22,374 nucleotides of DNA from a virus. The number at the start of each line of letters is the position of its first letter. The stretch's first letter is position 1. Below are positions 122 through 18,791 of this stretch, piece by piece. The position numbers were made by a program, and so were the translations under genes. Where the stretch lies: IMG/VR virus record IMGVR_UViG_3300032053_000577, positions 1 through 22,374 of that record, one strand, 5' to 3'. The notes under the pieces were generated by a model. It was not told the DNA's origin and made no database searches. It saw only the letters and a list, made by a program, of their open reading frames with translations.

Positions 122-761
122 TTTGCCTTTCTACTTCTTTATTTTTAAATAATGTTTGTAAACGTTTTTCTGTCGATTCTTTAGATATAAGTTTTCCCTT
201 TTCGGATAAACTAATTTTCTTTTTAGTTTCCTCCGACAAGACCCGACCAGAACAATTTTTGTTTCCAGTTAACTTATTTCTAATTTTTTCTTTAGTTTCT
301 TCGGAATGCTTTATTCCACGATTCCAAGCAACTTGCCCGCGATGATTTTCTCTCATTTTTTGAACAGATTCTTTCGAATGTTTTTTACCAAGCATTGGGG
401 GGCTGAGCGGATGCAGCTTTCTATATAATTTCATTTCAACTGATACATTATTCCTCAACTGTTCATATGTTCGAGAATTTAATTTTTCGCCGACATTTCT
501 GTATTGATACATACATGCCAATTTCCAAGCAGCACTTATCAATTTAAATCTAAATTCATTATCATATATTTTTGGGAGCAAAAGATGACAGATAAAATGT
601 TCTCTTGGATACAGTCGAATAATATTTTCTTTTGCATTGTTTCCGCCACAACATTTTGGAATAATATGATGTCTCTCCGAATAAATATTTTTCGGTATAC
701 TCCGAGTTTTAGCTTTATCAATAATTCGATAATAACAATTATAATACTTATTTTTTAGCAT
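108..761 (-). CDS. HNH homing endonuclease with NUMOD3 repeats
   Basis: This is a free-standing homing endonuclease of about 217 residues. The HNH core is ERHHIIPKCCGGNN, followed by N-I-I-R-L and R-E-H-F-I-C-H, giving the paired histidines and asparagine of the beta-beta-alpha metal fold. The C-terminal half has three NUMOD3-type DNA-binding motifs (GKKHSKES, GIKHSEET, GRVLSEET, each followed by a basic helix). I chose ATG at 761 (MLKNKYY) over the TTG at 779 because GATGGAAAAAA lies just upstream. The gene overlaps the end of the upstream gene by 14 bases and the start of the downstream gene by 14 bases, so it sits precisely at a gene junction. Such enzymes nick or cut cognate phage genomes lacking the insertion and spread by repair. 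Confidence 0.9.
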   Translation of the reverse strand: MLKNKYYNCYYRIIDKAKTRSIPKNIYSERHHIIPKCCGGNNAKENIIRLYPREHFICHLLLPKIYDNEFRFKLISAAWKLACMYQYRNVGEKLNSRTYEQLRNNVSVEMKLYRKLHPLSPPMLGKKHSKESVQKMRENHRGQVAWNRGIKHSEETKEKIRNKLTGNKNCSGRVLSEETKKKISLSEKGKLISKESTEKRLQTLFKNKEVERQNENL

Positions 762-1074
762 TTTTTTCCATCTTCTCAAGAAGATCGTAGTAATTTGGAA
801 TTTCTCGCAAATGTGCTAAACCGATTTTAGCAGTGGCCAATAAATTTCCGCCCGTAATATCCAAATGTTCTAATTCTGTATTTAAACTTTTTAAAAATTG
901 ACATGGACAAACTTCATTGGGTTGCCTATCTTTCTTTTTCATTAATTCTTTGAGAGGAACAAATTGGAGTCCTAGCATGTGCGCGGCTGCTTGAGCATCT
1001 GCTTCTGTGAAGCTGAATATATTTTTATCTAACTTCTCTTCTAAATCTTCAACTAGATTTCTGAAACTTTTCAT
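748..1074 (-). CDS. DUF5661-like protein with capsid-targeting-like N-terminus
   Basis: A 108-residue protein whose C-terminal half (ELEH, then TAKIGLAHLREIPNYYDLL and KMEKN) resembles the DUF5661 family seen in phages and bacteria; that match is from memory of the pattern. The N-terminus is MKSFRNLVEDLEEKL, sharing M-K-S-F-R with other proteins in this window, and L-E-E/K could be a prohead protease site. It also has a C-P-C motif near residue 58. It is followed by the HNH endonuclease with a 14-base overlap. No function is established. Virion packaging is inferred only from the leader. Confidence 0.75.
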   Translation of the reverse strand: MKSFRNLVEDLEEKLDKNIFSFTEADAQAAAHMLGLQFVPLKELMKKKDRQPNEVCPCQFLKSLNTELEHLDITGGNLLATAKIGLAHLREIPNYYDLLEKMEKNAKK

Positions 1075-1083
1075 AATAGTTCT

Positions 1084-1401
1084 CTAAAATAAAATCTTAA
1101 ACCAGTTCCACGCTGCATAGAAATAAAAACAGTTCACAAAAAATAACAAAAGCAAAGTTGATGTTTTATAACTAAACTTCTCAAAATAAAAGATATATGC
1201 TATTAACACCAAACTAAACAGTTTCGGCAGCATAAGCCCGGCATGAACACCAAAACTGTCCATGAAACAGCGAATTAATGGATTCGCTTCAATATCAATG
1301 CCGAACTGATCAACTCCAGCGTGAGTACACAATCCATCTTGGATTTGAAATATAGCCAGTAAGACTAGTAAAATCTTAAACAAAAACTTTTTGATAGCCA
1401 T
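1084..1401 (-). CDS. Small DUF5658-like membrane protein
   Basis: A 105-residue hydrophobic protein with three predicted membrane segments: near residues 5-23, 53-73 and 80-98. The pattern D-G-L-x-T-H-x-G, then E-x-N-P-L-I-R, a G, and a P-K before the second segment matches what I recall of DUF5658, a small family of unknown function in bacteria and phages. Its start overlaps the end of the RuvC-like gene by 26 bases, so the two are probably co-translated. Nothing in the sequence gives a specific role. Residues 1-24 could also be read as a signal peptide, but the later segments argue for an integral membrane protein. Confidence 0.75.
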   Translation of the reverse strand: MAIKKFLFKILLVLLAIFQIQDGLCTHAGVDQFGIDIEANPLIRCFMDSFGVHAGLMLPKLFSLVLIAYIFYFEKFSYKTSTLLLLFFVNCFYFYAAWNWFKILF

Positions 1402-1930
1402 ACTTTGCCAAAAAGTAGCTGTCTACTATATCCGATTCTGGATTTGTTCCTGCTACTTTAATATTTAGTTCTTTCAATAAGTCAAACTGGGTTTCTTTGT
1501 AGAAGGCTTCGTACATAACTTCTTTTCTGGCGTTACCTTTGCCAGTTGCAAACTTTTTAACAGTTGTTGGCGGAACTAAGGTAAAGTCTATCTTGGCTTT
1601 ATACAGCTTGTGTTTGAGTAGGCCAGTTAACTCTGCGATATTAAATAACATTCCAAGACGAGATCCGAACGAGTATCCTTCCAGGAAGACTACGGTGCCA
1701 GGCGAAAGTTGCGTGATTGCCCATTCTGTAATATTTTCATAGCGTTCTTCGTTGGTTTGCCAAAGCTTATGTGGGTGCCCAATGAACTTTCCGCAGAATC
1801 TTTCAAACTTCTTTTTGTCAATTAAGTAAGAAAAGCAGCAACCGTCCAAGCTAAATGGAACATTCCCGCCGTCCCAGAAACAAAGACACGGACAGGTCAA
1901 GCTAAAATCAATACCTACCAATGGGGCCAT
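1376..1930 (-). CDS. RuvC-like Holliday junction resolvase
   Basis: A 184-residue protein with the RNase H-like fold signature of RuvC resolvases. It has an N-terminal G-I-D-F-S strand (Asp8), an acidic strand end in FLEGYSFGS (Glu84), a basic stretch PPTTVKKFATGKGNARKE (about residues 120-137) typical of the DNA-binding segment, and a C-terminal ESDIVDSYFLAKYG with Asp167 and Asp170. These four acids would bind the catalytic metals. It would cut branched recombination or replication intermediates before packaging. In T4 that job is done by the unrelated endonuclease VII, so this phage uses the RuvC-type solution seen in other large phages. It overlaps the downstream membrane-protein gene. 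Confidence 0.87.
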   Translation of the reverse strand: MAPLVGIDFSLTCPCLCFWDGGNVPFSLDGCCFSYLIDKKKFERFCGKFIGHPHKLWQTNEERYENITEWAITQLSPGTVVFLEGYSFGSRLGMLFNIAELTGLLKHKLYKAKIDFTLVPPTTVKKFATGKGNARKEVMYEAFYKETQFDLLKELNIKVAGTNPESDIVDSYFLAKYGYQKVFV

Positions 1931-1951
1931 AAAGGGGCCAAAGGGGCAAAG

Positions 1952-2221
1952 TTATTTCTTGGAGGTCTTCTTTACGGGCTTCTTGGCAACTTTCTTAACT
2001 GCCTTCTTGACCGCCTTCTTGATCGGTTTGCAAGGATATGTCGGTTCATAATCGGCAATTACATTTTCATCTACCGGCTCTAATTCGCCAAGACCATCAG
2101 ACCAATTTTTCAGATCCTTTATAACTTCATCCATACGGGCCTGTCGATCTGTATTCTTATCGAGCAGGATGTCTAGTGTATATCCAAACAGCCTGAAAGT
2201 TACAATCTTTGGGTATCTCAT
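1952..2221 (-). CDS. Small protein with lysine/alanine/valine-rich tail
   Basis: An 89-residue protein I do not recognise. Residues 1-45 look globular (MRYPKIVTFRLFGYTLDILL), followed by an acidic linker (GELEPVDENVIADYEP). The last 24 residues are almost only K, A, V, P and T in a K-K-A-V-K-K rhythm, resembling histone H1 or bacterial HU-type tails. Such tails usually bind nucleic acid without sequence preference, so a DNA-associated role is plausible but unproven. The ribosome-binding site AAGGAA lies 6 bases before ATG. A good sigma-70-type promoter sits in the 65-base gap upstream. The resolvase gene follows after 21 bases. Confidence 0.8.
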   Translation of the reverse strand: MRYPKIVTFRLFGYTLDILLDKNTDRQARMDEVIKDLKNWSDGLGELEPVDENVIADYEPTYPCKPIKKAVKKAVKKVAKKPVKKTSKK

Positions 2222-2250
2222 TTTATTCCTTCCAATCTAAAATATAAAAC

Positions 2251-2279
2251 ATATTATCACAGCACGAATATTTTTTCAA
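2251..2279 (-). promoter_or_regulatory. Sigma-70-type promoter for the small lysine-tailed gene
   Basis: On the minus strand, TTGAAA (2279-2274) is followed after exactly 17 bases by TAATAT (2256-2251). A TG-T-GATAAT extended -10 overlaps the same place. The site lies in the gap between the ribonucleotide reductase stop and the gene starting at 2221. It would let host RNA polymerase transcribe the resolvase-side genes separately. In an AT-rich genome chance matches occur, but position and spacing both fit. Confidence 0.6.
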
Positions 2280-2286
2280 CCAATAT

Positions 2287-4809
2287 TTATCCACATTTGC
2301 TATTAACGGTTGAACAGTCTAAGCAAATAATAGAATAACAACCATTTTCATTCTTGATTTGAACATTTTTGCTGTTGCAATGTTCGCAACAAACATATTT
2401 TTTCATATCTTCTATTTTGATATATTTCTTGAGAACTCTTGAAATGGCAGAGCCATATTCAATAATTGACGGCGAAGATTTCTGTAGCTGGTCCACAACA
2501 TAATACAGCGGCGTTCCATGTCTCAGCGCCGTTGAAATGAGTCTAGTGGCCGCTTCATAGTCTTTGTTATCAAAATATTTGTTAACATCAATTTGTTTGA
2601 CTTCTACGTCTTCGATAAAAGTTAAATAATATCTAGACCGACCTTTCTTCTCAATAAAACTATGAAAAGGTTTCATAGGAATTTGATTATCATACTTACC
2701 AAAGAACACTTCATAAACAGATCCGTTCAGCAAACCAACAATAACAACGTAGTCTTCGCCCTTGACCTTGGTAAAATGAACCTCACAAGGAAGTTTGTCT
2801 GGACGAACGGGCGCTTCGACTCGTTGAATATGATCTGGCTTCTCGTTTGTATCTGTTACCAATACACCGGTTCGGCATCCATCGCGGTATACCGTCAGCC
2901 CTTTAAGACCTTTCTCCCAGGCCATTTCATAAAGTTCTTGAACCGTTTCTTGTGGAACATCTTTTGGCAAATTGATTGTTGAACTTATAGAATGATCAAC
3001 ATACTTTTGAATTGTGCTTTGCATCTCGACTCTTTTTTTCCAATTGATTTTATCGCTGGTTATGAAATAGCTTGGTAATATTTCATTTAATAATTCATCT
3101 TCGTTCTTGATTTGATCTGGAAGCTTACGATTATTAACTTCAAAATATCTCTTAACGTTCTTTTCAAACTGAGGAAAATGCATCCACTTGTCACCCATTG
3201 CATCTACAAAATCAACCCTGGCATTTAAATCATTTTGATTGATCTTTCTTCGGCGAATATAAACGTGTCTGAAAGATGGCTCAATTCCAGAACTGCACTG
3301 GGAAAGAATTGATATCGTTCCTGTTGGGGCCATCGTGAGTAAAGATATGTTTCTTCTGCCGTGCTTCTTCATTTTCTTTCGGAGCGCGTCAGGAAGTCTT
3401 TTAATGTATTCGCAGTTCTTTTCTTTCTCATAATCATATACAGGGAACGGCCCGTATTCAATTGCCATCTCTATTGACTCGTCGTATGCGGTATTACGAA
3501 ATGTTTCATATATTTTATCTACAATTTGAATTGCGGCTGAAGAATCATATCTTAAACAAAGCTGCGCCAAACAATCTGCTAGACCATGCGTTCCTAAGCC
3601 GCAGCGGCGACCGTTGATAGTACTTGTCAAAATTTTATTCCAGAGGTCTAATTCAACTTGATGATTTCCAGGATCGCTCTGTATCTTCTCAATAATTTTT
3701 TTGATGGCGACAATTTCTGTAGATACAATTGCATCCATCATTCTCATGGCGATTCGAACGTCGGTTTCAAACTTTCTGAAGTTGAATGCGGCCAACTTCG
3801 AAAATTTGTTGTCAACATACTGGGTCAAACAAATTGTGGTCAAGCGGCACGAATCGTTTGGACTAAGTATGATTTCGCCGCATGGGTTTGTTGAGACAGC
3901 TTTAAATCCTTCATAACAATGTGCTGGCAGGTTCTTTATACAGTTGTCCCACATTATAAGTCCCGGTTCTGCCATTTGCCAAGCCGATTCACATATTACT
4001 TTCCATAACTCTTTTGCCCGAACCTTTTTTACAACTGATGGCATATGTGAGTCAATTGGCCACTGCTGGACAAATTCTTTATCATTTATGACAGCTTTCA
4101 TAAACTCGTCAGAAATCTTCAAACTTACATTTGCGCCAGTGCAATATTTCAAATCGCGTTTGGCTTTAGCAAATAACTCAGCGTCTGGGTGTTTAATGTC
4201 CAGGGTAATCATCAGTGCGCCACGTCTACCAGATTGTCCGATTGCCCTGCACACATTTGAAAACTGATCCATAAATCCATAAGCGCCCGAGGATGATCTT
4301 GCAGCATTTGCGACTGGATGACCACACGGCCTTAATGTTGAGATATCAAGGCCAACGCCGCCGCGCCGCTTACTAAGTTGTGCAATCTCTTCGCTCGTTT
4401 TCATAATTCCAGATATACTATCTTCCGGGGAATCAATTACAAAACAATTTGAAAGACTCTGTGGAATAAATTTATTTCCAGCTGCGCTCAAAACACTTCC
4501 TTGCGGGCACACTCCCCGAAAATTATCACACGCATGACCAAAAACATCGACCCAAATAAATTGTCGGTCGGATCTAAGTGGAGAATATCCTTCGATGTTT
4601 TTTTCAAGCCATGCTTCAGAAGGAGCGCCATATGGTAAATTTAAAGCAAGGTCAAACATTACTCGATAGATCATTTCCTCTGGGCGGGTTTCAACAATTT
4701 CGCCCTGTTCATTCTTTAACAAATATTTGTTGATTGTTGTAGTTGCAGCAAATTCATTATCTTCAAAAAATGAAAATACCAACGGAAATTTTTCTTTGAT
4801 ATCATTCAT
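2287..4809 (-). CDS. nrdJ: Class II (adenosylcobalamin-dependent) ribonucleotide reductase
   Basis: An 840-residue reductase that turns ribonucleotides into deoxyribonucleotides in the cytoplasm. Visible landmarks are SNCFVI with Cys122, the active-site loop NPCGEI (Asn308, Cys310, Glu312), GLGTHGLAD near 404-412, APTGTISIL near 494-502, SSGIEP near 506-511 and YRDGCRTG. The length, single-chain form and lack of a small-subunit gene nearby fit class II NrdJ, which uses vitamin B12 coenzyme. The C-terminus has two Cys pairs (CCEHC, CLDC) and ends C-G, typical of the zinc-ribbon tail carrying the redox cysteines that re-reduce the active site. It starts 6 bases after the dCTP deaminase gene and has no clear ribosome-binding site, so translation may be coupled. 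Class II use makes synthesis oxygen-independent but dependent on host cobalamin. Confidence 0.95.
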   Translation of the reverse strand: MNDIKEKFPLVFSFFEDNEFAATTTINKYLLKNEQGEIVETRPEEMIYRVMFDLALNLPYGAPSEAWLEKNIEGYSPLRSDRQFIWVDVFGHACDNFRGVCPQGSVLSAAGNKFIPQSLSNCFVIDSPEDSISGIMKTSEEIAQLSKRRGGVGLDISTLRPCGHPVANAARSSSGAYGFMDQFSNVCRAIGQSGRRGALMITLDIKHPDAELFAKAKRDLKYCTGANVSLKISDEFMKAVINDKEFVQQWPIDSHMPSVVKKVRAKELWKVICESAWQMAEPGLIMWDNCIKNLPAHCYEGFKAVSTNPCGEIILSPNDSCRLTTICLTQYVDNKFSKLAAFNFRKFETDVRIAMRMMDAIVSTEIVAIKKIIEKIQSDPGNHQVELDLWNKILTSTINGRRCGLGTHGLADCLAQLCLRYDSSAAIQIVDKIYETFRNTAYDESIEMAIEYGPFPVYDYEKEKNCEYIKRLPDALRKKMKKHGRRNISLLTMAPTGTISILSQCSSGIEPSFRHVYIRRRKINQNDLNARVDFVDAMGDKWMHFPQFEKNVKRYFEVNNRKLPDQIKNEDELLNEILPSYFITSDKINWKKRVEMQSTIQKYVDHSISSTINLPKDVPQETVQELYEMAWEKGLKGLTVYRDGCRTGVLVTDTNEKPDHIQRVEAPVRPDKLPCEVHFTKVKGEDYVVIVGLLNGSVYEVFFGKYDNQIPMKPFHSFIEKKGRSRYYLTFIEDVEVKQIDVNKYFDNKDYEAATRLISTALRHGTPLYYVVDQLQKSSPSIIEYGSAISRVLKKYIKIEDMKKYVCCEHCNSKNVQIKNENGCYSIICLDCSTVNSKCG

Positions 4810-4815
4810 GTTTAA

Positions 4816-5331
4816 TTATATCTTTGGAGCAGTCGCGCCAAATTGATTTTGATATTTGTCTGTATTCTTTTCGCCATATGCACATTCGGCTGGCTCTTCC
4901 ATTCCGAGAAAGACAAGTTGCGCTATCTTATCTCCATGTTTAAGAACATATGGATTTGGCCCGATGTTGTGAAGTTCCAATGTAATTTGTCCGTTAAATC
5001 CCGGATCTACCCACCCAGCAAGTGTGTGATTAATGAAGCTTCTTCCAATTGTGCTTTTTAATTTCAAATCGCAGCAAACGTCGCGTGGTATTTTAACATA
5101 TTCAAATGTAGTTGCAAGTACAACTTCATTTGGTCGTAAAATAAATTCATCTGAAACTTTAGTAGTAAATCCAGATATCCAAGACCCACAAAGATAATAT
5201 TTTTTAATTGGGACCAACCAACTATTCCCGAGTACTACGTCATAGCTTGCCGAATTAACTTGCTCAGAACTAAAAGGAGAGATGCCTCCCGCTTCACCAA
5301 ATTCTCGAATCCATCGATCATTCTTAATCAT
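4816..5331 (-). CDS. dcd: dCTP deaminase
   Basis: A 171-residue trimeric dUTPase-fold enzyme that deaminates dCTP to dUTP, feeding dTTP synthesis. Diagnostic segments are KSTIGRS (phosphate-binding), AGWVDPGFNGQITLELHN with the catalytic-type Glu in ITLE, HGDKIAQLVF, and a C-terminal DKYQNQFGATAPKI matching the nucleotide-covering tail of bacterial Dcd. Length is close to bacterial Dcd (about 190). The sequence cannot decide whether it is monofunctional or also hydrolyses dUTP, as some archaeal and phage relatives do. AAGGAAC lies 8 bases before ATG, and a possible extended -10 lies upstream, just past a terminator. It is paired with the reductase as a nucleotide-supply unit. Confidence 0.92.
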   Translation of the reverse strand: MIKNDRWIREFGEAGGISPFSSEQVNSASYDVVLGNSWLVPIKKYYLCGSWISGFTTKVSDEFILRPNEVVLATTFEYVKIPRDVCCDLKLKSTIGRSFINHTLAGWVDPGFNGQITLELHNIGPNPYVLKHGDKIAQLVFLGMEEPAECAYGEKNTDKYQNQFGATAPKI

Positions 5332-5370: not shown

Positions 5371-5398
5371 ATAAAAAAGAGAGCGGTGAAACACTCTC
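5371..5398 (-). terminator. Intrinsic terminator after the lipoprotein gene
   Basis: Read on the minus strand, GAGAGTG (5398-5392) pairs with CGCTCTC (5385-5379), seven base pairs with one G-U, around a 6-base loop. A run of six T follows. It lies 27 bases after the stop of the gene at 5425-6468, in the 93-base gap before dcd. It is the only clear hairpin-plus-T-run terminator I see. On the plus strand the hairpin has a mismatch and a poorer T-run. Confidence 0.8.
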
Positions 5399-5424: not shown

Positions 5425-6468
5425 TCACTTTAGCACAACTTCTGCCTCAGAGATTCCCAGCAATAAACTCGCCGATCCTAGAGGGTTATCCAAAACATAA
5501 TTCCTATTTGTATATTCAGGATATGGAATAAAGTTTCCCGGACTTGTTTGTTGAAGCCCCTGCCCGTGCTCCGACCACACAAACATCAATATTCCTTTAG
5601 CTTGTGTGTGAGATATTGCATTACGAATTTGAGATTCTGACAACGCGCCTGGGGCACACGTTGGATTTGCAGCAAAGCAAAATGTATTTCCATCATTGTT
5701 AAAAATATCTCCCGGCCTCAAACTTCCGATTGCAGAATAATTGTGTGATTCGTATATTGTTCCGTTCTCTCCGGGACTTCCTCCATTGCGAACGATTTTA
5801 GATTTATCTGACCAGCCCACATTAGCCAACATACTCAACAAGATATTAAATGACGAATGATTTTGATTGTCTTCCAATTCAGGACAAATCAAAACGTTAA
5901 CGCCAAGAGCCTCCAAGGTGTTTGCATATGCCACAACCTCTCCAAAAAGATTTTGCACGGCGTCTCTAACTTTTTGATTTGATTGAAGCAAAGAAACAAA
6001 TTCTTCATCGGAAACATTTTTCCCTACCACTCCATTAATCCAAGAATCTCGGCTCTTTCTCATACTTGGGCCGTTTAAAATATGAATCTCGTGTGTTACT
6101 AGAAATCCATCATTGATGAATGATTCTAGAACACTCTGAACTTGAAGATGCGAAGGCGTCTCTGGAAAGGTATATAGTTCATTTGTTGCTATGTGTCTGA
6201 CGACCTTAGCAATAGATTTATACCCAATTCCTTCTGCGGTTTGCGAGTCCTCAAGAGGAAATTTTCCAGAAACGCCCATAGCAAAAGTCGATAGTCCAAG
6301 TGGTGTGGTATTTTCTACAATCGAATTCAAAATTCGATTGTCTGTAGAATCGCCACCAGTATCTTGGCCGCCGCCAGAGCCTCCGCCTGAACAAGACAAA
6401 ATCGTAATTGAATATAAACAAAACCCCGCTATAAAAACTTCAGTTGCGTATTTAATATAATTTTTCAT
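5425..6468 (-). CDS. Lipoprotein, glycosidase-like barrel candidate (paralogue of neighbour)
   Basis: A 347-residue putative lipoprotein. A hydrophobic signal ends in I-L-S-C with Cys26 as the lipid-attachment residue. A flexible Gly/Ser/Asp linker (about 27-43) follows, then a globular domain of about 290 residues. I do not recognise the family. Four segments match the neighbouring membrane protein at 6479-7822 with nearly equal spacing: I-H-I-L-N (128) with Arg137, ICPELEDN (194), IFNNDG (255) and MFVWSEHGQG (295). Glu199 and Glu300 would end predicted strands, as the acids do in TIM-barrel glycosidases; that is inference. It starts 10 bases after the upstream gene, and a terminator follows it. 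It should be exposed in the periplasm or on the infected cell surface. Confidence 0.82.
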   Translation of the reverse strand: MKNYIKYATEVFIAGFCLYSITILSCSGGGSGGGQDTGGDSTDNRILNSIVENTTPLGLSTFAMGVSGKFPLEDSQTAEGIGYKSIAKVVRHIATNELYTFPETPSHLQVQSVLESFINDGFLVTHEIHILNGPSMRKSRDSWINGVVGKNVSDEEFVSLLQSNQKVRDAVQNLFGEVVAYANTLEALGVNVLICPELEDNQNHSSFNILLSMLANVGWSDKSKIVRNGGSPGENGTIYESHNYSAIGSLRPGDIFNNDGNTFCFAANPTCAPGALSESQIRNAISHTQAKGILMFVWSEHGQGLQQTSPGNFIPYPEYTNRNYVLDNPLGSASLLLGISEAEVVLK

Positions 6469-6478
6469 TTCTATTTCC

Positions 6479-7822
6479 TTATTGAACTGGCTGTGGCACT
6501 AGTGCGGTCACATCATCAATCTGATAGCACACGAGTTTGTCGTCTTGAAGTTGGATCTTAAGTCCAATTTTTAAAGGATACAGTTCTGGACTCAAAAGCG
6601 CCTTCCAGGTATATGTGAATGCCACATCATCTTTAGATGCAAAAGTAAATCGATCAATCTTGCCATAAAAGGTATATGCTTCAACGGATTTTGCGTCTTG
6701 TTTTAAAATCCAATCGCTGCCGCCTTCAACATTGGAGATGACAGAAAATGCATTCTTTTTGAAGACTTTATTGCAGTCTTTAAAAATATCTAACTCCCGA
6801 TAAGTCCAAACATCTTTATTAACTCTAGGAAAATCTTGACCGCGCACTACTTGTTCTCCAACCAATTTATATGCATTCGTGGAATTACAATTTCTTGTGC
6901 GAGGATCTGGACGAGGCCCATTATATCCAGTCTCGTAACAATTGCTTTCCCACGTCCACAGATATACAAACCGGCACTTATTGCCGTTCGTGTACATATA
7001 CTTATCCAATTCCTGGCCAACATCTAAGATGGTTGGTTTATATCCAGCACTTGATGTTGGTTTGCCTGGGAAACGAATTTCACCGCCGTCCAAATTGTAA
7101 ATGCATGGCGCAGGAACATCTGAATAAATTGCGTGTGTTTCTGTCAAATCAGCAAGGATGTTGTGTTTCCAATTATTGGAACGCTTCATCGTGTTCCACG
7201 TAATTAGGCAATTTGGAAAGCTTTCCCGCGTTAGGTCTACTAATACTTTCCCGGCATCATAGTCTAAATTACTTTCTAACCCAGGACTTATATAGCACGT
7301 TGTCCACGGAGCCAGGTTTATATCTAAGAATTTTCTAATCCCCGCAAAATATACCTTAAGCTTTTTAAGGAGAACTTTATCTTTGGCAATTAGTTTATTG
7401 CTATAGGTAGTTGGGGTTGAACCTGCTAAGAACTCATATGAGCCGCAGTTTCTATTTCGATTGCATACTTCGTTTATTGCATGTATTTGCAAACTCTTGG
7501 TTCGAGTGTCGTTTAATAATTTCAATAAACAATCGGGATTATTTCCAAAACTGTTCCAGACAATTGACAAATCAATCCGCTTTGCTTTTTTGGTAGACTT
7601 AATAAATTTCTTACATTCAAATTTATCGTGCATGATTGCATAGGGCGAATATGCAATGTTCAGAAGCTTTTTGTTATTTACAACTTTGGGTTTGGCCAGC
7701 GATACTACTAAAACTATTGCCAAACATATTCCAAGTGTAAGGAATCCAACTCGTGCTGGATGAGTCTTTTCTTTTTCTTCGTCCAAAAGTTTGCTATCAT
7801 CTTCTAATAGTAAGTCGCCCAT
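6479..7822 (-). CDS. Single-span membrane protein, glycosidase-like barrel candidate
   Basis: A 447-residue protein with an acidic cytoplasmic N-terminus (1-24), one membrane segment (about 25-43, GFLTLGICLAIVLVVSLA) and a large extracytoplasmic domain. Ten or more cysteines in that domain fit disulfide bonds in the periplasm. Motifs I-H-A-I-N (113) with Arg122, ISPGLESN (178), IYNLDGG (241) and FVYLWTWESN (285) line up with the lipoprotein gene downstream, spaced 65, 63 and 44 residues against 66, 61 and 40. It has an extra C-terminal region of about 110 residues, probably a beta domain, that the lipoprotein lacks. Glu183 and Glu292 are candidate acids. The family is unknown to me; glycan hydrolysis is a guess from pattern. 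The gene abuts the primase gene upstream (1 base). Confidence 0.82.
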   Translation of the reverse strand: MGDLLLEDDSKLLDEEKEKTHPARVGFLTLGICLAIVLVVSLAKPKVVNNKKLLNIAYSPYAIMHDKFECKKFIKSTKKAKRIDLSIVWNSFGNNPDCLLKLLNDTRTKSLQIHAINEVCNRNRNCGSYEFLAGSTPTTYSNKLIAKDKVLLKKLKVYFAGIRKFLDINLAPWTTCYISPGLESNLDYDAGKVLVDLTRESFPNCLITWNTMKRSNNWKHNILADLTETHAIYSDVPAPCIYNLDGGEIRFPGKPTSSAGYKPTILDVGQELDKYMYTNGNKCRFVYLWTWESNCYETGYNGPRPDPRTRNCNSTNAYKLVGEQVVRGQDFPRVNKDVWTYRELDIFKDCNKVFKKNAFSVISNVEGGSDWILKQDAKSVEAYTFYGKIDRFTFASKDDVAFTYTWKALLSPELYPLKIGLKIQLQDDKLVCYQIDDVTALVPQPVQ

Positions 7823-7823
7823 A

Positions 7824-8846
7824 TTAACATTTCTTCCACTGGTCTAAATTTAATACCGCACTTAATCCATTATAAGTATTTTCTTCGATTTCTGTTACGA
7901 TAGATTCTGCTGTTCGACCAGAAAGAATCATATCATTAATATCTTTATTAGGATTTGTTTGTGGCCAAATACAAATGTTATATCCTTCGTTGATTATATG
8001 TCGCATTTGTGTTATAAGTTCTTTATTTCTGCATTGATTGTCGAAAACATATGTTGCATCTTTTTTGTTTGGGAACAGACTTGAAACATTTACCGAAGAT
8101 CCTGCCATAGCCAAACAGTTGGGAAGAAAGAGCGCATCAAATGGCCCCTCAACAATTAACGTCGATTTTCTTTTATCCCAACGTTCTAGTCCAAATATTT
8201 TTGGAGCTTCTTGATCGAACTTGATAGTAACATATCTAAGCTTCGAAGGCAACAAAGATCTGCCCTGAAGCATCACCATATTTTGTTTTTGATCAAAAAA
8301 TGGAATTACGATTCTTGGGTCAGACGTTTCGCTGTGATACTTTTCTTTAAACTCACCATCAGTTATTTTGATTGCCCATTCTTTAAAGTCTGAACAGTAA
8401 TAGAAAAGACTTAGAAACTTTTCTGGAATTTTTCTTTCGATTAAATACTTTTTGGCTACGTGTGAGTCTAGAAGGTCTTCTATATTCGGCAGTCCCAGTT
8501 GAAACTTTTCAATCTTCTTTGGTTTTATGTTTTTAAATTCTGGGACCGAGTGTGCTTTCTTGCCACCTTCTCCTGATGTATATCGTTCTAATCTATATTG
8601 TTCATACAATGGAACGTTCAAAAATTTAATGAAGGTTCCAATCGTAACACTTTTATTGCAGTTGTGACAGAAGAAGTACAGATCGCTTTTGCGCCGGTAA
8701 ATATATCCGCGACATTTGGATTTTTTCCTCTGAGAATCTCCACAATATGGACAGCGAGCTATAAATAAGTAGTCGCCTTTCTGTTTAAATCTTTCTAAAC
8801 AGGAAGCTAACAATTTAACATATTTTAGATCTAGATATAAACTCAT
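7824..8846 (-). CDS. 61: T4 gp61-like DNA primase
   Basis: A 340-residue primase, close to the T4 gp61 length of 342. An N-terminal zinc ribbon is visible as CPYCGDSQ (about residues 32-39) and FFCHNCN (about 58-64). A TOPRIM-type catalytic core shows in LIVEGPFDALFLPN with the conserved Glu, then TYVFDN. It makes RNA primers for lagging-strand synthesis with a gp41-type helicase. The ATG at 8846 lacks a visible ribosome-binding site: the upstream bases are the 5' end of the plus-strand GIY-YIG gene, whose ATG is only 6 bases away. Transcription therefore has to pass antisense through that endonuclease gene or start inside it. It is followed by the membrane protein gene after 1 base. Confidence 0.92.
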   Translation of the reverse strand: MSLYLDLKYVKLLASCLERFKQKGDYLFIARCPYCGDSQRKKSKCRGYIYRRKSDLYFFCHNCNKSVTIGTFIKFLNVPLYEQYRLERYTSGEGGKKAHSVPEFKNIKPKKIEKFQLGLPNIEDLLDSHVAKKYLIERKIPEKFLSLFYYCSDFKEWAIKITDGEFKEKYHSETSDPRIVIPFFDQKQNMVMLQGRSLLPSKLRYVTIKFDQEAPKIFGLERWDKRKSTLIVEGPFDALFLPNCLAMAGSSVNVSSLFPNKKDATYVFDNQCRNKELITQMRHIINEGYNICIWPQTNPNKDINDMILSGRTAESIVTEIEENTYNGLSAVLNLDQWKKC

Positions 8847-8852
8847 AGAAAT

Positions 8853-9686
8853 ATGTTTACTATATATAAAATTTTAAATTTAGTCAACAACAAAGTATAC
8901 ATTGGATATACCGGCAAAGATATTAATTGGTATATGAAGCGACGTTTTACTCAAGCAGAACATGGGCACTGGAAATCAAGAATGTTGTATAATGCAATTC
9001 GGAAATATGGTAGTAACAATTTTACTTATAAAATATTGGAAATGGTAACTTCAATAAAAGAAGCTAAAGAGAAAGAAGTCCATTTTATCAAAGAATACAA
9101 TTCTTATTATCAGAATAATAAAGGATATAATATGACATTTGGCGGTGATGGCGGGGCTTGTATAATGACCGAAGAAATTAAACAAAAGATAAGGGATGCT
9201 TGGACCAAAGAAAAGAGAAAATTACATAGTGAAAAACGTCTTGGAAAACCTGGAATGTGTGGAAAGTTAAATCCAAGATATGGTATTCCCAACAATGGTC
9301 CAAAAAATGGAATGTATGGAAAAGAACCCTGGAATAAAGGGAAACCGTGCTCGTCAGAACTATTAGACGCGATTAAAGAACGAGCAAGAAATCCAGAATC
9401 AAGAAGAAAGAAAAGTGAATCAAAAATGGGTAAGAAGAATCCTAATTACGGCAAACCTGAAACGGCAAAAAATTTTGGAGATGTAAGCGGAGGAAATAAT
9501 GGCAGAGCCAAAAAAGTTATAATTAATGGAATTGAGTATTCTTGCATGAAAGAAGCAATGAAAAAATTAAATCTTAAACGAAGACAAGTTCAAAAATATA
9601 TCAATTCTTTTTGGTCAAATCCACAATCGGATCGTATATATTTTCGGTGTAAATCTTCTTGTAGTCTTCTGGAAGTTTCTCTTTGA
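8853..9686 (+). CDS. GIY-YIG homing endonuclease, opposite strand
   Basis: The only plus-strand gene, 277 residues. The GIY-YIG nuclease domain covers about residues 1-95: IYKILNLVNNKVYIGYTG gives the two-motif signature, an Arg-rich helix follows (MKRRF), and YNMTFGGDGG closes the domain. The middle has NUMOD3-like glycine-lysine loops (GKLNPRYG, GPKNGMYGKEPWNKGK, GKKNPNYGK), and the end has a NUMOD1-like helix-turn-helix (IINGIEYSCMKEAMKKLNL, then RRQVQKYI). It sits between the primase start and the next minus-strand gene. Its last 86 bases overlap that gene tail to tail. No ribosome-binding site is clear. This orientation is unusual because the other three endonuclease genes here follow the direction of their neighbours. 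Confidence 0.92.
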   Translation: MFTIYKILNLVNNKVYIGYTGKDINWYMKRRFTQAEHGHWKSRMLYNAIRKYGSNNFTYKILEMVTSIKEAKEKEVHFIKEYNSYYQNNKGYNMTFGGDGGACIMTEEIKQKIRDAWTKEKRKLHSEKRLGKPGMCGKLNPRYGIPNNGPKNGMYGKEPWNKGKPCSSELLDAIKERARNPESRRKKSESKMGKKNPNYGKPETAKNFGDVSGGNNGRAKKVIINGIEYSCMKEAMKKLNLKRRQVQKYINSFWSNPQSDRIYFRCKSSCSLLEVSL

Positions 9687-9871: not shown

Positions 9872-10537
9872 TTACTCCAGCCAAAGAAACCCGTTATTCC
9901 TAAAAGCTAATTTTCCAAAATTCAGACAAGTTGGAATCTCCATTCCTTCAAATACAAAATTTACATTCATTTTTTTCACATATTGACTATATGCTTGTTG
10001 GACTTTGCCAAATTGAATGTTCTTGGAGAACTTGACAAGTTCATCTTTCGTTTTGGAATCGTACACGCCAAAGAGATTGAAATCATCGACCTTCATTACA
10101 ATAGCATCTTGATCATACTTCTTGGCCAGATCAAAACATAGATCAACGAATAACTTAGGATCGAAGTCCTTGAATCTAGGAACAAAGTATGATCGTTCTA
10201 TTGTATCTTTTTTCTTATCAATCGGACACTTATCATATGGCGTATCTGGCAACTCGCACTCCTGCCAGTGACCAACAAGAGGATACCCACCCAATTTTTT
10301 ACTGTTCAAAGCTGCACGAAGCTCCCTATTCGCAAGAACGTTGTCTTCCTTGGTTCTGTCCTTGCCGTCTCGGTCTTTGCGCCTATAGGCCGTAATGATG
10401 CAAAAGTCCGTATCTTGTGCTTTCTGCCACAATCTAGAAAGAGAACCTTCAGATATTACATCAAAACAAAAATCAAGACCCGTGATATACTCATCTCGAT
10501 TTTCTTTTAAGATAACGAATTGTTTGAAACTTTTCAA
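9872..10537 (-). CDS. DUF3293-like protein with capsid-targeting-like leader
   Basis: About 221 residues. The core resembles DUF3293: F-C-I-I-T-A-Y-R, then N-x-x-L near a run of residues, GYPLVGHWQE, ERSYFVP, and FDLAKKYDQDAIVMKVDD. Family assignment is from pattern memory and its function is unknown. I place the start at TTG 10537 rather than ATG 10543. GGAG lies 7 bases before the TTG but only 1 base before the ATG. From TTG the protein begins MKSFKQFVILKEN, matching the leader shared by other genes here, with L-K-E/N as a possible prohead protease site. A near-consensus promoter lies directly upstream. The alternative start adds only Met-Asp. Confidence 0.78.
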   Translation of the reverse strand: MKSFKQFVILKENRDEYITGLDFCFDVISEGSLSRLWQKAQDTDFCIITAYRRKDRDGKDRTKEDNVLANRELRAALNSKKLGGYPLVGHWQECELPDTPYDKCPIDKKKDTIERSYFVPRFKDFDPKLFVDLCFDLAKKYDQDAIVMKVDDFNLFGVYDSKTKDELVKFSKNIQFGKVQQAYSQYVKKMNVNFVFEGMEIPTCLNFGKLAFRNNGFLWLE

Positions 10538-10555
10538 GTCCATACTCCGATTGTA

Positions 10556-14446: not shown

Positions 14447-15145
14447 TTACTCGTTATTTTCTAGTATAGTAACTCTGAAACCGTGACAGCTTTTAAATCC
14501 AGGTCGTCTATTAACTATGCTATACATACTTTGACTGGCCAATTGATGTTTTTTTGAAAATTCTACCAAATTAACAACTTCTTCGGTTTCTCCGGTTGGG
14601 TGGGTGACTAGATATTTTCTTTTACACCTGGATTTCGTCATTTTCTTTTTGACTTCTTCAGACCTTTTATAATATTTCCACGGCGCGTTGGTTTGCGCCA
14701 AGGACATTTTCTTTTTGACTTCTTCAGAATGCGCCCAGCCTTTCCCATTGACGGCTTTTTTCTCTCTCCAAATCGGATCGGCCCACAATTTTTTGGACGC
14801 CATTGACGTTTTTCTTTTCTGATCTTCCGACACAACACACCCGGCGCGTCCGTCTCCTCCACCAGTAAGATTATATCCATTTGGAACTTTGGTATTATGT
14901 TCTTTAATAAGTTTTGGCTCTAACACGTGTAAACAATATTCCAATTCCTCTGAGCACTCTAACAGTTCAAATTTAAAATTCTCTTTTCCATATTTACGTA
15001 TGGCCCCATGAATAGCACAATGAGATCCACTTTTTGCTGATGACAGGTGCCTATTCCATCTCCTTTCTAAAGATTGGCTCGTAAAACCAACATATGCCTT
15101 TTGATTGACGAGATTAATTATCTTATAGATTGAATAGACCTTCAC
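14447..15145 (-). CDS. GIY-YIG homing endonuclease before gp15
   Basis: A 232-residue free-standing endonuclease. Nuclease domain: SIYKIINLVNQKAYVGFTS, RRWNRHL, IRKYGKENFKFELLE, a Glu in LEPKLIKEHN, and GYNLTGGGDG (about residues 5-100). The linker has NUMOD3-like units (WAHSEEVKKKMS, YKRSEEVKKKMT), and the C-terminus has a DNA-binding module (VVNLVEFSKKHQLASQSMYS, then VNRRPGFKSCHGF). The start is GTG at 15145, directly after the TAA of the upstream gene, with AGAGGT 4 bases ahead. It is inserted between a conserved unknown gene and gp15. The middle and end resemble the endonuclease at 16297-17067, so the two are close relatives. Confidence 0.92.
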   Translation of the reverse strand: MKVYSIYKIINLVNQKAYVGFTSQSLERRWNRHLSSAKSGSHCAIHGAIRKYGKENFKFELLECSEELEYCLHVLEPKLIKEHNTKVPNGYNLTGGGDGRAGCVVSEDQKRKTSMASKKLWADPIWREKKAVNGKGWAHSEEVKKKMSLAQTNAPWKYYKRSEEVKKKMTKSRCKRKYLVTHPTGETEEVVNLVEFSKKHQLASQSMYSIVNRRPGFKSCHGFRVTILENNE

Positions 15146-16296: not shown

Positions 16297-17067
16297 TTAA
16301 TTAGGTTTCTCAATTCGCTTTGCTACAAACCCTTTATGGTGGGTCCAGCGTCCATTAACAACTGCATAAATTGCACTAGTTCCTAAATTATTATCTCTAG
16401 CAAACTGTTTCAGGTTATTGACTTGAATTTTTGTGTTATCAGGACAAGTCACTTCATAAGTATATTTACTGTGTTTTTGTGCCTGTATCTTTCGTTTTTC
16501 TGAATCTTTCCATCGATCAGAAACAATTTTAGATAATTTTTCTTTATATTCTTGGGTTGAAGCGGCTTGCTTCATCTTGTCAATTGTTTTTTGAGAATGC
16601 CGATATCCTTTTTTAGATGCTATAAATTTTTCTCTTTGTTCCCCCGACCAACGACTTCCCAGCCGTTGTAAATTTCCCAACATTCTTTGGCGAAGCTGCT
16701 TTTTGGACTTTTCTGTCCAGTTTCTTTTTCGATTTGCATTGCCAACGGCAATACGAGTGTGCTCTGGAACATCTAATCCCACGGCTCCTTCTCCGCCAAG
16801 AGTTAAATTATAACCATCATTGTATGTATTAAATTTCTCTATGAAATATGGCTCCATTACTTTTAAACAGTGATCAACGTCTTTGGATTGATAAATCACT
16901 TCAAATTTAAAATTTTCACCTCCATATTTTTTCATTGCTCGGTGTAAATAATATTTTCGACCGCTCAATTTTTTATGAGCCGACACCCTGGCTTCAAAAT
17001 TAGTAGTAAAGCCAACATATCTTTTGTGGTTTATCAAATTTTCAACAAGATATATATTAGCAATCAT
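16297..17067 (-). CDS. GIY-YIG homing endonuclease after gp14
   Basis: A 256-residue free-standing endonuclease counted from ATG 17067. An in-frame ATG at 17175 would add 36 residues antiparallel in style to the gp14 tail, without motif content, so I rejected it. Nuclease domain: MIANIYLVENLINHKRYVGF, T-x-x-F-E-A-R-V-S-A-H, YGGENFKFEVI, EPYFIEKFNTY, GYNLTLGGEG. NUMOD3-like units follow (MLGNLQRLGSRWSGEQ, KGYRHSQKTIDKMKQ), then a C-terminal DNA-binding module (VNNLKQFARDNNLGTSAIYA, then VNGRWTHHKGF) closely like that of the gene at 14447-15145. It starts 1 base after the gp14 stop. Confidence 0.92.
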   Translation of the reverse strand: MIANIYLVENLINHKRYVGFTTNFEARVSAHKKLSGRKYYLHRAMKKYGGENFKFEVIYQSKDVDHCLKVMEPYFIEKFNTYNDGYNLTLGGEGAVGLDVPEHTRIAVGNANRKRNWTEKSKKQLRQRMLGNLQRLGSRWSGEQREKFIASKKGYRHSQKTIDKMKQAASTQEYKEKLSKIVSDRWKDSEKRKIQAQKHSKYTYEVTCPDNTKIQVNNLKQFARDNNLGTSAIYAVVNGRWTHHKGFVAKRIEKPN

Positions 17068-17068
17068 T

Positions 17069-17947
17069 TTAGTCTTTCCCCGTTCCAAACGGATTGTCGG
17101 GCGTCCAATCCACAACAGGATTTGCTCCGGTCGATGCCGAATCATGAATCTGTTTATTATCGGCGACGGGATCATTTTTCAATTCTCGATTATCAAATGA
17201 AGCAATAGTATAGACAACACCAGAAGTAGCTCCCTTAATTGGAAGTGTATTATCAAAATCTCCAACCAAATCTTTGACTTTTAAAACTTTGTGATGGCGT
17301 TCATAATGAATACACATTGCTTTTGCCGTTGCTGAAGATAGATCATTTCCTTGATATACCCATTCGCCAATCAAATATCTTCCAGAACCTACATCCATTC
17401 TAAAATCTACTGCGAAGGCTCTTTCATTTTCAAAGCGATCTATCTCTCTCACGCCGGTTCTGATTCGTTGATTTGAATAATTGAATAGATCTATCCTCAG
17501 AGAATATAAAGCATTGCTCACTGTGCCCAATTGATGAAACGGTTTTTCGTGCTCCACAAATGTTATCTCATAAATCGAATCAGTTAGAGGAAAGTATATC
17601 ATATCTTTCTCTCTTGGGCGATATAATGTATGTCCTACTGCATGTCTAAAGCGCCGCATTGATATGAGCAAATTTCCCTTCTCCTCAATCTGGATGCCAA
17701 ATTTTGCGATGAAATCGTTCTGTCCTTCCCAACCTGTAACGTGCTCCACGTAGGCTTCTAAATCATATGCCCTTTTATACTCCATTAGAGTATCTTCGCC
17801 ATAAAGTCCATCTGGATTTACAAGATCATATGGCACGAAAATTATATCGATACCATAGCAACGTATTGCTTCTATTAATAAATCTTCCAATAATGACTGA
17901 TCTGCGTTCGACCCGTAGTTAGAAGCGAAATATCTGTTGATCGACAT
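17069..17947 (-). CDS. 14: T4 gp14-like neck protein
   Basis: A 292-residue homologue of T4 gp14 (256 residues), a neck protein that joins the filled head to the tail. Shared blocks in order are LLIEAIRCYGIDIIFVPYDL (T4: ESIQMRGVECYYVPREY), GEDTLMEYKRAYDLEAYVE, GWEGQNDFIAKFGIQI, KEKDMIYFPLTDSIYEI then FVEHEKPFHQLG (T4: DLIYFPMDNSLFEINWVE), and a terminal WTPDNPFGTG (T4: ESSPFDNDFMD). The C-terminal third differs from T4 and is longer. The ATG at 17947 has GGAT 6 bases upstream. A GIY-YIG gene follows after one base, separating it from gp15, which is nearly adjacent in T4. Confidence 0.92.
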   Translation of the reverse strand: MSINRYFASNYGSNADQSLLEDLLIEAIRCYGIDIIFVPYDLVNPDGLYGEDTLMEYKRAYDLEAYVEHVTGWEGQNDFIAKFGIQIEEKGNLLISMRRFRHAVGHTLYRPREKDMIYFPLTDSIYEITFVEHEKPFHQLGTVSNALYSLRIDLFNYSNQRIRTGVREIDRFENERAFAVDFRMDVGSGRYLIGEWVYQGNDLSSATAKAMCIHYERHHKVLKVKDLVGDFDNTLPIKGATSGVVYTIASFDNRELKNDPVADNKQIHDSASTGANPVVDWTPDNPFGTGKD

Positions 17948-17997: not shown

Positions 17998-18357
17998 TTA
18001 GCGATGCGAGTAGAAAGGAACGGGGTTGGCTAGAGCGCCTTCGTAATAAACTTGATATTGTTTGATAATCTCTTGTAATAGCACAATATAATTTTGGATC
18101 TGCTGCATATTCAACGCAAGAACTTTATAGCTGTTTCCGCTTAGTCCGATGATGACAGGTTTTAAACCTTTCTTTTCTAATTCTTTAAACTTTTGTTCTG
18201 CATTGGCGCGAGTCACTACAAGAAACTGAACGTCTCCCAGTTGTATCGGATCGGGAAGTTTTATCTCAAGCTTCGGCTTTTCAACTGGCTCTGTCTTGAT
18301 ATTGAGCCAAGAACACCCAACCATCCCAATTAAAAGCAAACAAAATAATCTTTTCAT
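17998..18357 (-). CDS. Lipoprotein, o-spanin (Rz1-type) candidate
   Basis: A 119-residue lipoprotein counted from ATG 18357. MKRLFCLLLIGMVGC is a short signal with Cys15 as the lipid-attachment residue. I preferred this ATG to the one at 18378 because TAAGGTG lies 6 bases ahead and the signal peptide then starts at residue 1. The mature part has a Pro/Lys/Glu linker, then VQFLVVT, then GNSYKVLALNMQQIQNYIVL and IIKQYQVYY, a pattern I recall in T4-like outer-membrane spanins. It directly follows an inner-membrane coiled-coil gene, the classic spanin order. Together they would fuse inner and outer membranes at lysis. No holin or endolysin gene is visible here. Confidence 0.72.
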   Translation of the reverse strand: MKRLFCLLLIGMVGCSWLNIKTEPVEKPKLEIKLPDPIQLGDVQFLVVTRANAEQKFKELEKKGLKPVIIGLSGNSYKVLALNMQQIQNYIVLLQEIIKQYQVYYEGALANPVPFYSHR

Positions 18358-18365
18358 ACAACACC

Positions 18366-18791
18366 TTACTTCGAACATTTGGCGCTTTTATCTCCGCTCA
18401 ATGCTCTGAGACAGTTCAATACGTCTAATGTAGCTTTGTTTATCAAATTCTGAATCCTATCTTTTTTATCAAGTAAAGCAAGGTCTTCCAAGGAAGCTTT
18501 GCCCTCGTGCTCTCTGTAAAGAACATCTTCTAACTCTTTGGTTTTCTTTTCTAATTGCTTTACTTTTTCGTTGTAGGCGTCTTTGGCCAGGATAATAGCT
18601 TTGTAGTCTTTCTGAAGAGCGTCGATAGTTTTGAGTTGTTCCTGAACAGCGACCTGCAACTTAGCATTATCTGTCTGAAGAGTGTCAACAGTTGCTCTAA
18701 GATACCAAATATATGCCAGTGCTGCTAAGACCGCTACAGTGATTGCGGTAATTATCATTGCTTTAACACTTGCGAAGATTTGCCAAAACAT
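18366..18791 (-). CDS. Inner-membrane coiled-coil protein, i-spanin (Rz-type) candidate
   Basis: A 141-residue protein with one N-terminal membrane segment (about 10-30, AMIITAITVAVLAALAYIWY). A long heptad-rich coiled coil follows (about 33-90, with LQTDNAKLQVAVQEQL and VKQLEKKTKELEDVL), then a C-terminal tail with two cysteines (CLRAL, KCSK). This is the layout of Rz-type i-spanins, which span the periplasm and bind an outer-membrane lipoprotein partner. The partner candidate starts 8 bases downstream. The membrane and coiled-coil reading is direct; the spanin role is inferred from layout and pairing. Confidence 0.75.
   Translation of the reverse strand: MFWQIFASVKAMIITAITVAVLAALAYIWYLRATVDTLQTDNAKLQVAVQEQLKTIDALQKDYKAIILAKDAYNEKVKQLEKKTKELEDVLYREHEGKASLEDLALLDKKDRIQNLINKATLDVLNCLRALSGDKSAKCSK

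Follow-up and report, generated by a model that had tools for sequence, protein, structure and literature searches.

The adjacent P1 and P2 genes of a T4-like phage encode proteins that are as good as certainly true homologues, and sequence comparison indicates that they form an uncharacterised phage protein family, unlisted in the libraries searched. The family is newly defined here by seven proteins, i.e., P1, P2, and relatives from four other phage contigs, and by a set of invariant residues; its two branches co-occur in at least two T4-like phages. Our preferred reading, which we hold with slightly less than even confidence, is that P1 and P2 are exported, membrane-tethered, glycosidase-like barrels that act on host envelope glycan, a proposal that draws on sequence features and on a structural model of P2.

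Genomic context

The window, i.e., the whole stretch of DNA analysed, is a virus record of 22.4 kb with the gene content of a T4-like phage, including genes for a primase, a ribonucleotide reductase with a TSCPD domain, a dCTP deaminase, a RuvC-like resolvase, a tail sheath stabiliser, a head closure protein, and spanins. The P1 and P2 genes (Table 1) are located on the minus strand between the primase gene and the dCTP deaminase gene (4816-5331) on the same strand, with a single base separating primase and P1, and 10 bases separating P1 and P2. A P1-type gene is found in the same slot, directly after the primase gene, in locus L075. At the other related loci examined, primase is followed by a ribonucleotide reductase gene, a thyX-like gene or another gene; in most of them this slot is occupied by nucleotide-metabolism or other genes. 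The P1- and P2-type genes look like accessory genes with a patchy distribution.

Table 1. Positions of P1, P2, their motifs and domains, and flanking elements in the window.
Feature	Position	Strand	Remark
DNA primase gene	7824..8846	-	directly upstream of P1
P1, 447 aa: N-terminal TM anchor, predicted barrel domain, C-terminal domain	6479..7822	-	relatives L075, L083
P1 predicted transmembrane segment, residues 25-43	7694..7750	-	hydropathy (KD) 2.7 over 19 residues
P1 predicted barrel domain, ~residues 53-325	6848..7666	-	profile alignment to P2 branch
P1 IHAINEVCNR, from I113, Arg122 invariant	7457..7486	-	
P1 strand-4 motif ISPGLESN, from I178, invariant Glu183	7268..7291	-	
P1 invariant E228-x-H230	7133..7141	-	
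P1 IYNLDG, from I241; N243, D245, G246 invariant	7085..7102	-	
P1 W289-T-W-E292; Glu kept in 3/3 P1-type members	6947..6958	-	
P1 C-terminal domain, ~residues 345-447, P1 branch only	6482..6790	-	P1, L075, L083 alignment
P2, 347 aa, predicted lipoprotein with predicted barrel domain	5425..6468	-	relatives L072, L073
P2 predicted lipoprotein signal peptide, residues 1-25, before Cys26	6394..6468	-	read from sequence
P2 predicted barrel domain, ~residues 56-335	5464..6303	-	profile alignment and model
P2 IHILNGPSMR, from I128, Arg137 invariant	6058..6087	-	
P2 strand-4 motif ICPELEDN, from I194, invariant Glu199	5866..5889	-	
P2 invariant E240-x-H242	5743..5751	-	
P2 IFNNDG, from I255; N257, D259, G260 invariant	5689..5706	-	
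P2 W298-S-E300; Trp invariant, Glu not conserved among P2-type relatives	5569..5577	-	
Terminator-like hairpin and T run	5379..5398	-	directly after P2

Homology of P1 and P2 and identification of relatives

BLASTP aligned P1 and P2 collinearly across most of their length with an E-value of 0.028, and shuffle tests returned P values of 0.003-0.013 with BLOSUM62 or PAM250 and 0 of 1000 with BLOSUM45. This two-sequence resemblance, little above chance level, is suggestive only. To obtain relatives, IMG/VR was scanned with a degenerate DNA pattern in which two motifs of P2, I-[SC]-P-x-L-E and I-[YF]-N-x-[DN]-G, were set as far apart as they are in P1 and P2; this gave five matches, one of them an open frame (L030, in the 49-kb phage G013). 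The G013 member had Smith-Waterman scores of 116 against P2 and 65 against P1, and an alignment of these three sequences then recovered L072 (60-61% identity to P2), L073 (43-45% identity to P2; encoded in the 167.8-kb T4-like phage G015), and L075 (32% identity to P1). With a six-row profile, P1 and P2 are found again in the window, and both types in G015 (P1-type domain E 1.3e-33), where L083 (445-2679) encodes a 744-aa protein with an N-terminal anchor, FG-GAP repeats (Pfam E 1.5e-8), a P1-type domain, and a P1-type C-terminal domain.

The relatives make the homology firm because they permit a profile-profile match: hhalign of the P2 branch (four sequences) versus the P1 branch (two sequences) gave a probability of 97.1 and an E-value of 4.8e-11 over 257 columns. 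This bears out the earlier note, in which the two were described as diverged paralogues. A chance resemblance between unrelated proteins, to which the BLASTP value by itself would have lent some colour, is practically eliminated by the profile E-value and the existence of intermediate sequences.

Direct searches with P1 or P2 of IMG/VR, phages, plasmids, Pfam, PHROGs, and PDB found no relative, and the seven family members had no convincing barrel match in Pfam, PHROGs, or NCBIfam. PADLOC contained no match for the family, and no glycoside hydrolase (GH) family profile matched in Pfam (E up to 5-10) or NCBIfam (E up to 1). A profile search, run without a positive control, of approximately 1,650 sampled bacterial genomes (Gammaproteobacteria, Bacteroidota, Alphaproteobacteria, Desulfobacterota, and Pseudomonadota) found no relative; its single weak match sits in a protein that by eye is flagellar-cap-like. 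Two further candidates were discarded: the Pfam match between P1 and a reovirus domain (E 0.022) did not reach the cut-off of that domain, and a gene of Aggregatibacter phage S1249 that matched weakly (E 0.02) carries a kinase annotation.

Two branches of the family

A tree based on 286 core columns separates P2, L072, L073, and the G013 member from P1, L075, and L083 with a support of 99. Because the types are separated in this manner, the sequences indicate that the P1-type and P2-type branches are older than the divergence of the window phage from G015, and the tree rejects a recent tandem duplication. Proteins of opposite branches are 15-25% identical. The search for the pair in other phages, suggested in the earlier note, found one P1-type and one P2-type gene in G015, approximately 24 kb apart (at 44.8 kb and 69.1 kb). 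The designation as tandem genes therefore holds for the window, where the two are adjacent, but not for G015, nor for L075, which has no P2 neighbour within the 6.4 kb examined.

Anchoring and export

Two different anchors had been proposed and both were recognised, a predicted transmembrane segment at residues 25-43 of P1 and a lipobox (ITILS-C26) in P2. Lipoboxes are also encountered in L072 (LTAC) and L073 (VLAC). According to the enterobacterial Lol rule, a residue other than Asp at position +2 directs a lipoprotein to the outer membrane; Asp is absent from this position in P2, L072, and L073, and P2 is therefore predicted to be an outer-membrane lipoprotein. On the P1 side, L075 has a signal peptide, and P1 and L083 have an N-terminal hydrophobic anchor. 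The G013 member lacks an export signal, and thus an envelope location is not obligatory for the family.

Since positive charge is nearly balanced between the flanks of the P1 helix, the orientation of this protein is deduced from its cysteine pattern and its relatives. Outside the helix P1 contains 12 cysteines, and a comparison of the three P1-type proteins shows these to be kept or missing two at a time: C70/C98 and C350/C432 are found in all three, L083 shares C120/C126, C176/C205, and C295/C312 with P1 whereas L075 lacks all six, and L075 shares C240/C283 with P1 whereas both are missing in L083, which has one additional pair. Among C120, C126, C176, C205, C295, and C312, more than one choice of partners is compatible with the three sequences. 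The pattern resembles that of disulfides in an oxidising compartment and supports an extracytoplasmic location of the domain. From these sequence features, export of P1 and P2 is likely.

Conserved motifs and residues

The family signature consists, in order, of IHxxN...R, PxLE, E-x-H, N-x-D-G, and Trp. Invariant in all seven proteins are R122/137, I-x-P-x-L-E (E183/199), E-x-H, N-x-D-G, W289/298, and G299/304 (P1/P2 numbering); the IH of IHxxN is replaced in the G013 member. The four motifs listed in the earlier note are present in both proteins at near-constant spacing, as it described, and the E-x-H motif had been missed. Its first two intervals were reproduced (65/63 residues in P1, 66/61 in P2); the last one measures 48 and 43 residues to the Trp, and the values of 44 and 40 apply only to the strand start.

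The proposed shared ending W-[TS]-x-E did not hold, because the Glu is at W+3 in P1 but at W+2 in P2, where it is not conserved among relatives. The context of E292 in the P1 branch is W-x-x-E-[SD]-N, whereas L072, L073, and the G013 member lack an equivalent Glu (WSAALQ, WHSDLQ, and WSANMQ, respectively). Of the two Glu positions that had been regarded as conserved and likened to the acid/base and nucleophile of TIM-barrel glycosidases, the PxLE Glu is thus found in seven of seven proteins and the second one only in the P1 branch, where by strand count it would be on the last strand. Since the E292-type Glu is absent from P2 relatives, the alignment indicates that the classic two-Glu retaining mechanism is not shared by the family as a whole. 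Should the proteins be glycosidases, the role of second acid may fall to the Glu of E-x-H or the Asp of N-x-D-G, or the activities of the branches may differ.

Domain organisation and predicted fold

The C-terminal domain, previously assigned to the larger protein only, is indeed limited to that type (three of three P1-type and none of four P2-type members). Eight hydrophobic segments can be counted in the sequence, with the motifs appearing at the ends of segments 3, 4, 6, 7, and 8. A single-sequence AlphaFold prediction of P1 reached a pLDDT of 38. The P2 model, built from six sequences (L083 left out), had a mean pLDDT of 51.7 and a pTM of 0.55; residues 62-186 are mostly confident and display strand-helix alternation, and the remainder is poor, with most of the second half at pLDDT < 50. 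The VIA-align matches listed for this model are TIM-barrel enzymes (GH35, GH5, GH20, aldolases, and URO-D), many of them glycosidases, at Z 5.0-6.3; Z values below 8 may reflect a common arrangement only, and no family was named from them. The prediction agrees, at limited confidence, with the barrel-like fold suggested in the earlier note, and a beta/alpha barrel is the likely fold of the P1/P2 domain.

Foldseek matches in PDB were not significant (E 0.1-1) and comprised glycosidases and sugar epimerases (the latter including psicose 3-epimerase and UlaE; both groups at E 0.1-0.5), as well as unrelated folds. The top three matches among viral predicted structures (BFVD; E 0.011-0.016) were A0A6J5SYH0, A0A6J5M538, and A0A6J5MYV4, uncharacterised proteins of 268, 451, and 375 aa, respectively, from uncultured Caudovirales phages, which on the basis of the model may be further members of the family.

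Proposed role and alternative explanations

In the preferred reading, the phage would export both proteins from the cytoplasm. The N-terminal helix would tie P1 to the inner membrane, with a disulfide-rich barrel and the extra C-terminal domain in the periplasm, while P2 would be lipidated and sent to the outer membrane. Each protein would expose a probable (beta/alpha)8 barrel with an invariant polar cluster of Arg, PxLE Glu, E-x-H, N-x-D-G, and Trp at the ends of the strands, which is where the active site of such barrels is located, and host envelope glycan would be cleaved or bound in a glycosidase-like manner from both membrane surfaces during infection; here both the nature of the substrate, a glycan, and the advantage for the phage are inferred. 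A glycan theme fits the fusion to an FG-GAP propeller in L083 and the location of the G013 gene next to genes for a family-2/92-like glycosyltransferase and a methyltransferase. It is doubtful that the pair constitutes a two-membrane system, in which diverged barrel enzymes face each other across the periplasm and jointly remodel host glycan; such remodelling would exclude competitors or prepare the envelope. Provided that the barrels are active, a tethered glycan enzyme would be deployed by the phage on both membranes of its host, for which we know of no described example.

Retaining glycosidases of clan GH-A have two catalytic Glu residues, located after strands 4 and 7. P1 and P2 resemble members of this clan (GH5, GH35, GH26) in their probable beta/alpha barrel, the Glu after strand 4, and the Trp near the end, and such enzymes are among the structural matches listed for the P2 model. 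They differ in that there is no sequence match, and in that the second Glu is confined to the P1 branch, and a count of the strands places it after the last one. GH family membership is not claimed, as no profile matched and the two-Glu feature fails.

The strongest rival to the glycan-enzyme reading is superinfection exclusion or receptor masking, which we regard as unlikely but deserving of weight. By analogy with T5 Llp and T4 Spackle, P2 (and P1) would act from the periplasm without catalysis, binding either an envelope protein of the host or an incoming tail component, and thereby block further phages. Proteins of the Llp/Cor class are small lipoproteins that jam a TonB-dependent receptor. 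P2 shares with them that it is phage-encoded and, by prediction, an outer-membrane lipoprotein facing the periplasm, but it differs from the small, receptor-jamming Llp in its enzyme-like invariants and its 347 aa, a size (the only feature compared) that does not fit the class; it had no match in a phage collection that includes many coliphages. Llp acts from the periplasm as an outer-membrane lipoprotein (PMC9586334) and Spackle is a periplasmic inhibitor of the gp5 lysozyme (PMC7677548), so that the predicted location of P1 and P2 fits those of both. The accessory nature of the genes is also in keeping with exclusion, most related loci examined having nucleotide-metabolism or other genes directly after primase. 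Spackle is likewise a periplasmic accessory protein of a T4-type phage, but it inhibits a lysozyme, and neither Spackle nor Llp is related in sequence to P1 or P2 as far as tested. Moreover, the Glu, E-x-H, and N-x-D-G residues are invariant at the low identity between the branches, which suggests an enzyme site, since a binding face would diverge with its target.

Less probable again is a barrel enzyme of another class, e.g., a metal-dependent epimerase, phosphodiesterase, or deacetylase that would act on envelope lipids or sugars. The invariant Glu, E-x-H, and Asp could bind metal, and the Foldseek list mixes psicose 3-epimerase and UlaE with glycosidases; however, these matches are not significant and the PxLE Glu, aligned by eye, is off the position of the epimerase Glu.

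It is improbable that P1 and P2 form a pair for lysis or envelope weakening, in place of the spanins or in support of them. Spanins consist of a short inner-membrane protein and a short outer-membrane lipoprotein, often encoded by overlapping genes, and P1 and P2 similarly combine an inner-membrane and an outer-membrane-lipoprotein partner encoded together. They are nevertheless far larger (447 and 347 aa), their genes do not overlap and adjoin replication genes, the two types are not always adjacent (G015), and the window already has a normal spanin pair (17998-18791).

Additional observations

In the minus-strand spanin-like pair, the gene at 18366-18791 overlaps the lipoprotein gene at 17998-18378; in many related loci the gene for the lipoprotein partner lies immediately upstream of the primase gene, whereas here approximately 9 kb separate the two. 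The ribonucleotide reductase (2287-4809, minus strand) has a C-terminal Cys cluster in addition to its TSCPD domain, and is approximately 22-31% identical to those of primase-matched phage loci, the nearest one found being that of L026 (44%). Genes for a DUF5658 protein (1084-1401, minus strand; E 1.8e-7) and a DUF5661 protein (748-1074, minus strand; E 1.2e-11) adjoin the RuvC-like resolvase gene. Three homing-endonuclease-like frames (8853-9686, plus strand; 14447-15145 and 16297-17175, minus strand) were judged by eye to be GIY-YIG-like from N-terminal YKILN...YIGYT / YVGFT motifs, and the first of these is the only sizeable plus-strand gene in the window. Upstream of the P2 relative in L072, a 1160-aa protein with collagen-like GPTG repeats (433-3912) is perhaps a tail fibre. 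Finally, the 223-aa protein encoded at 9872-10543 (minus strand) matches the S-adenosylmethionine lyase family of Pfam weakly (E 6.6e-4; 20.1 bits against a cut-off of 28), and could be an anti-restriction, SAM-degrading enzyme.
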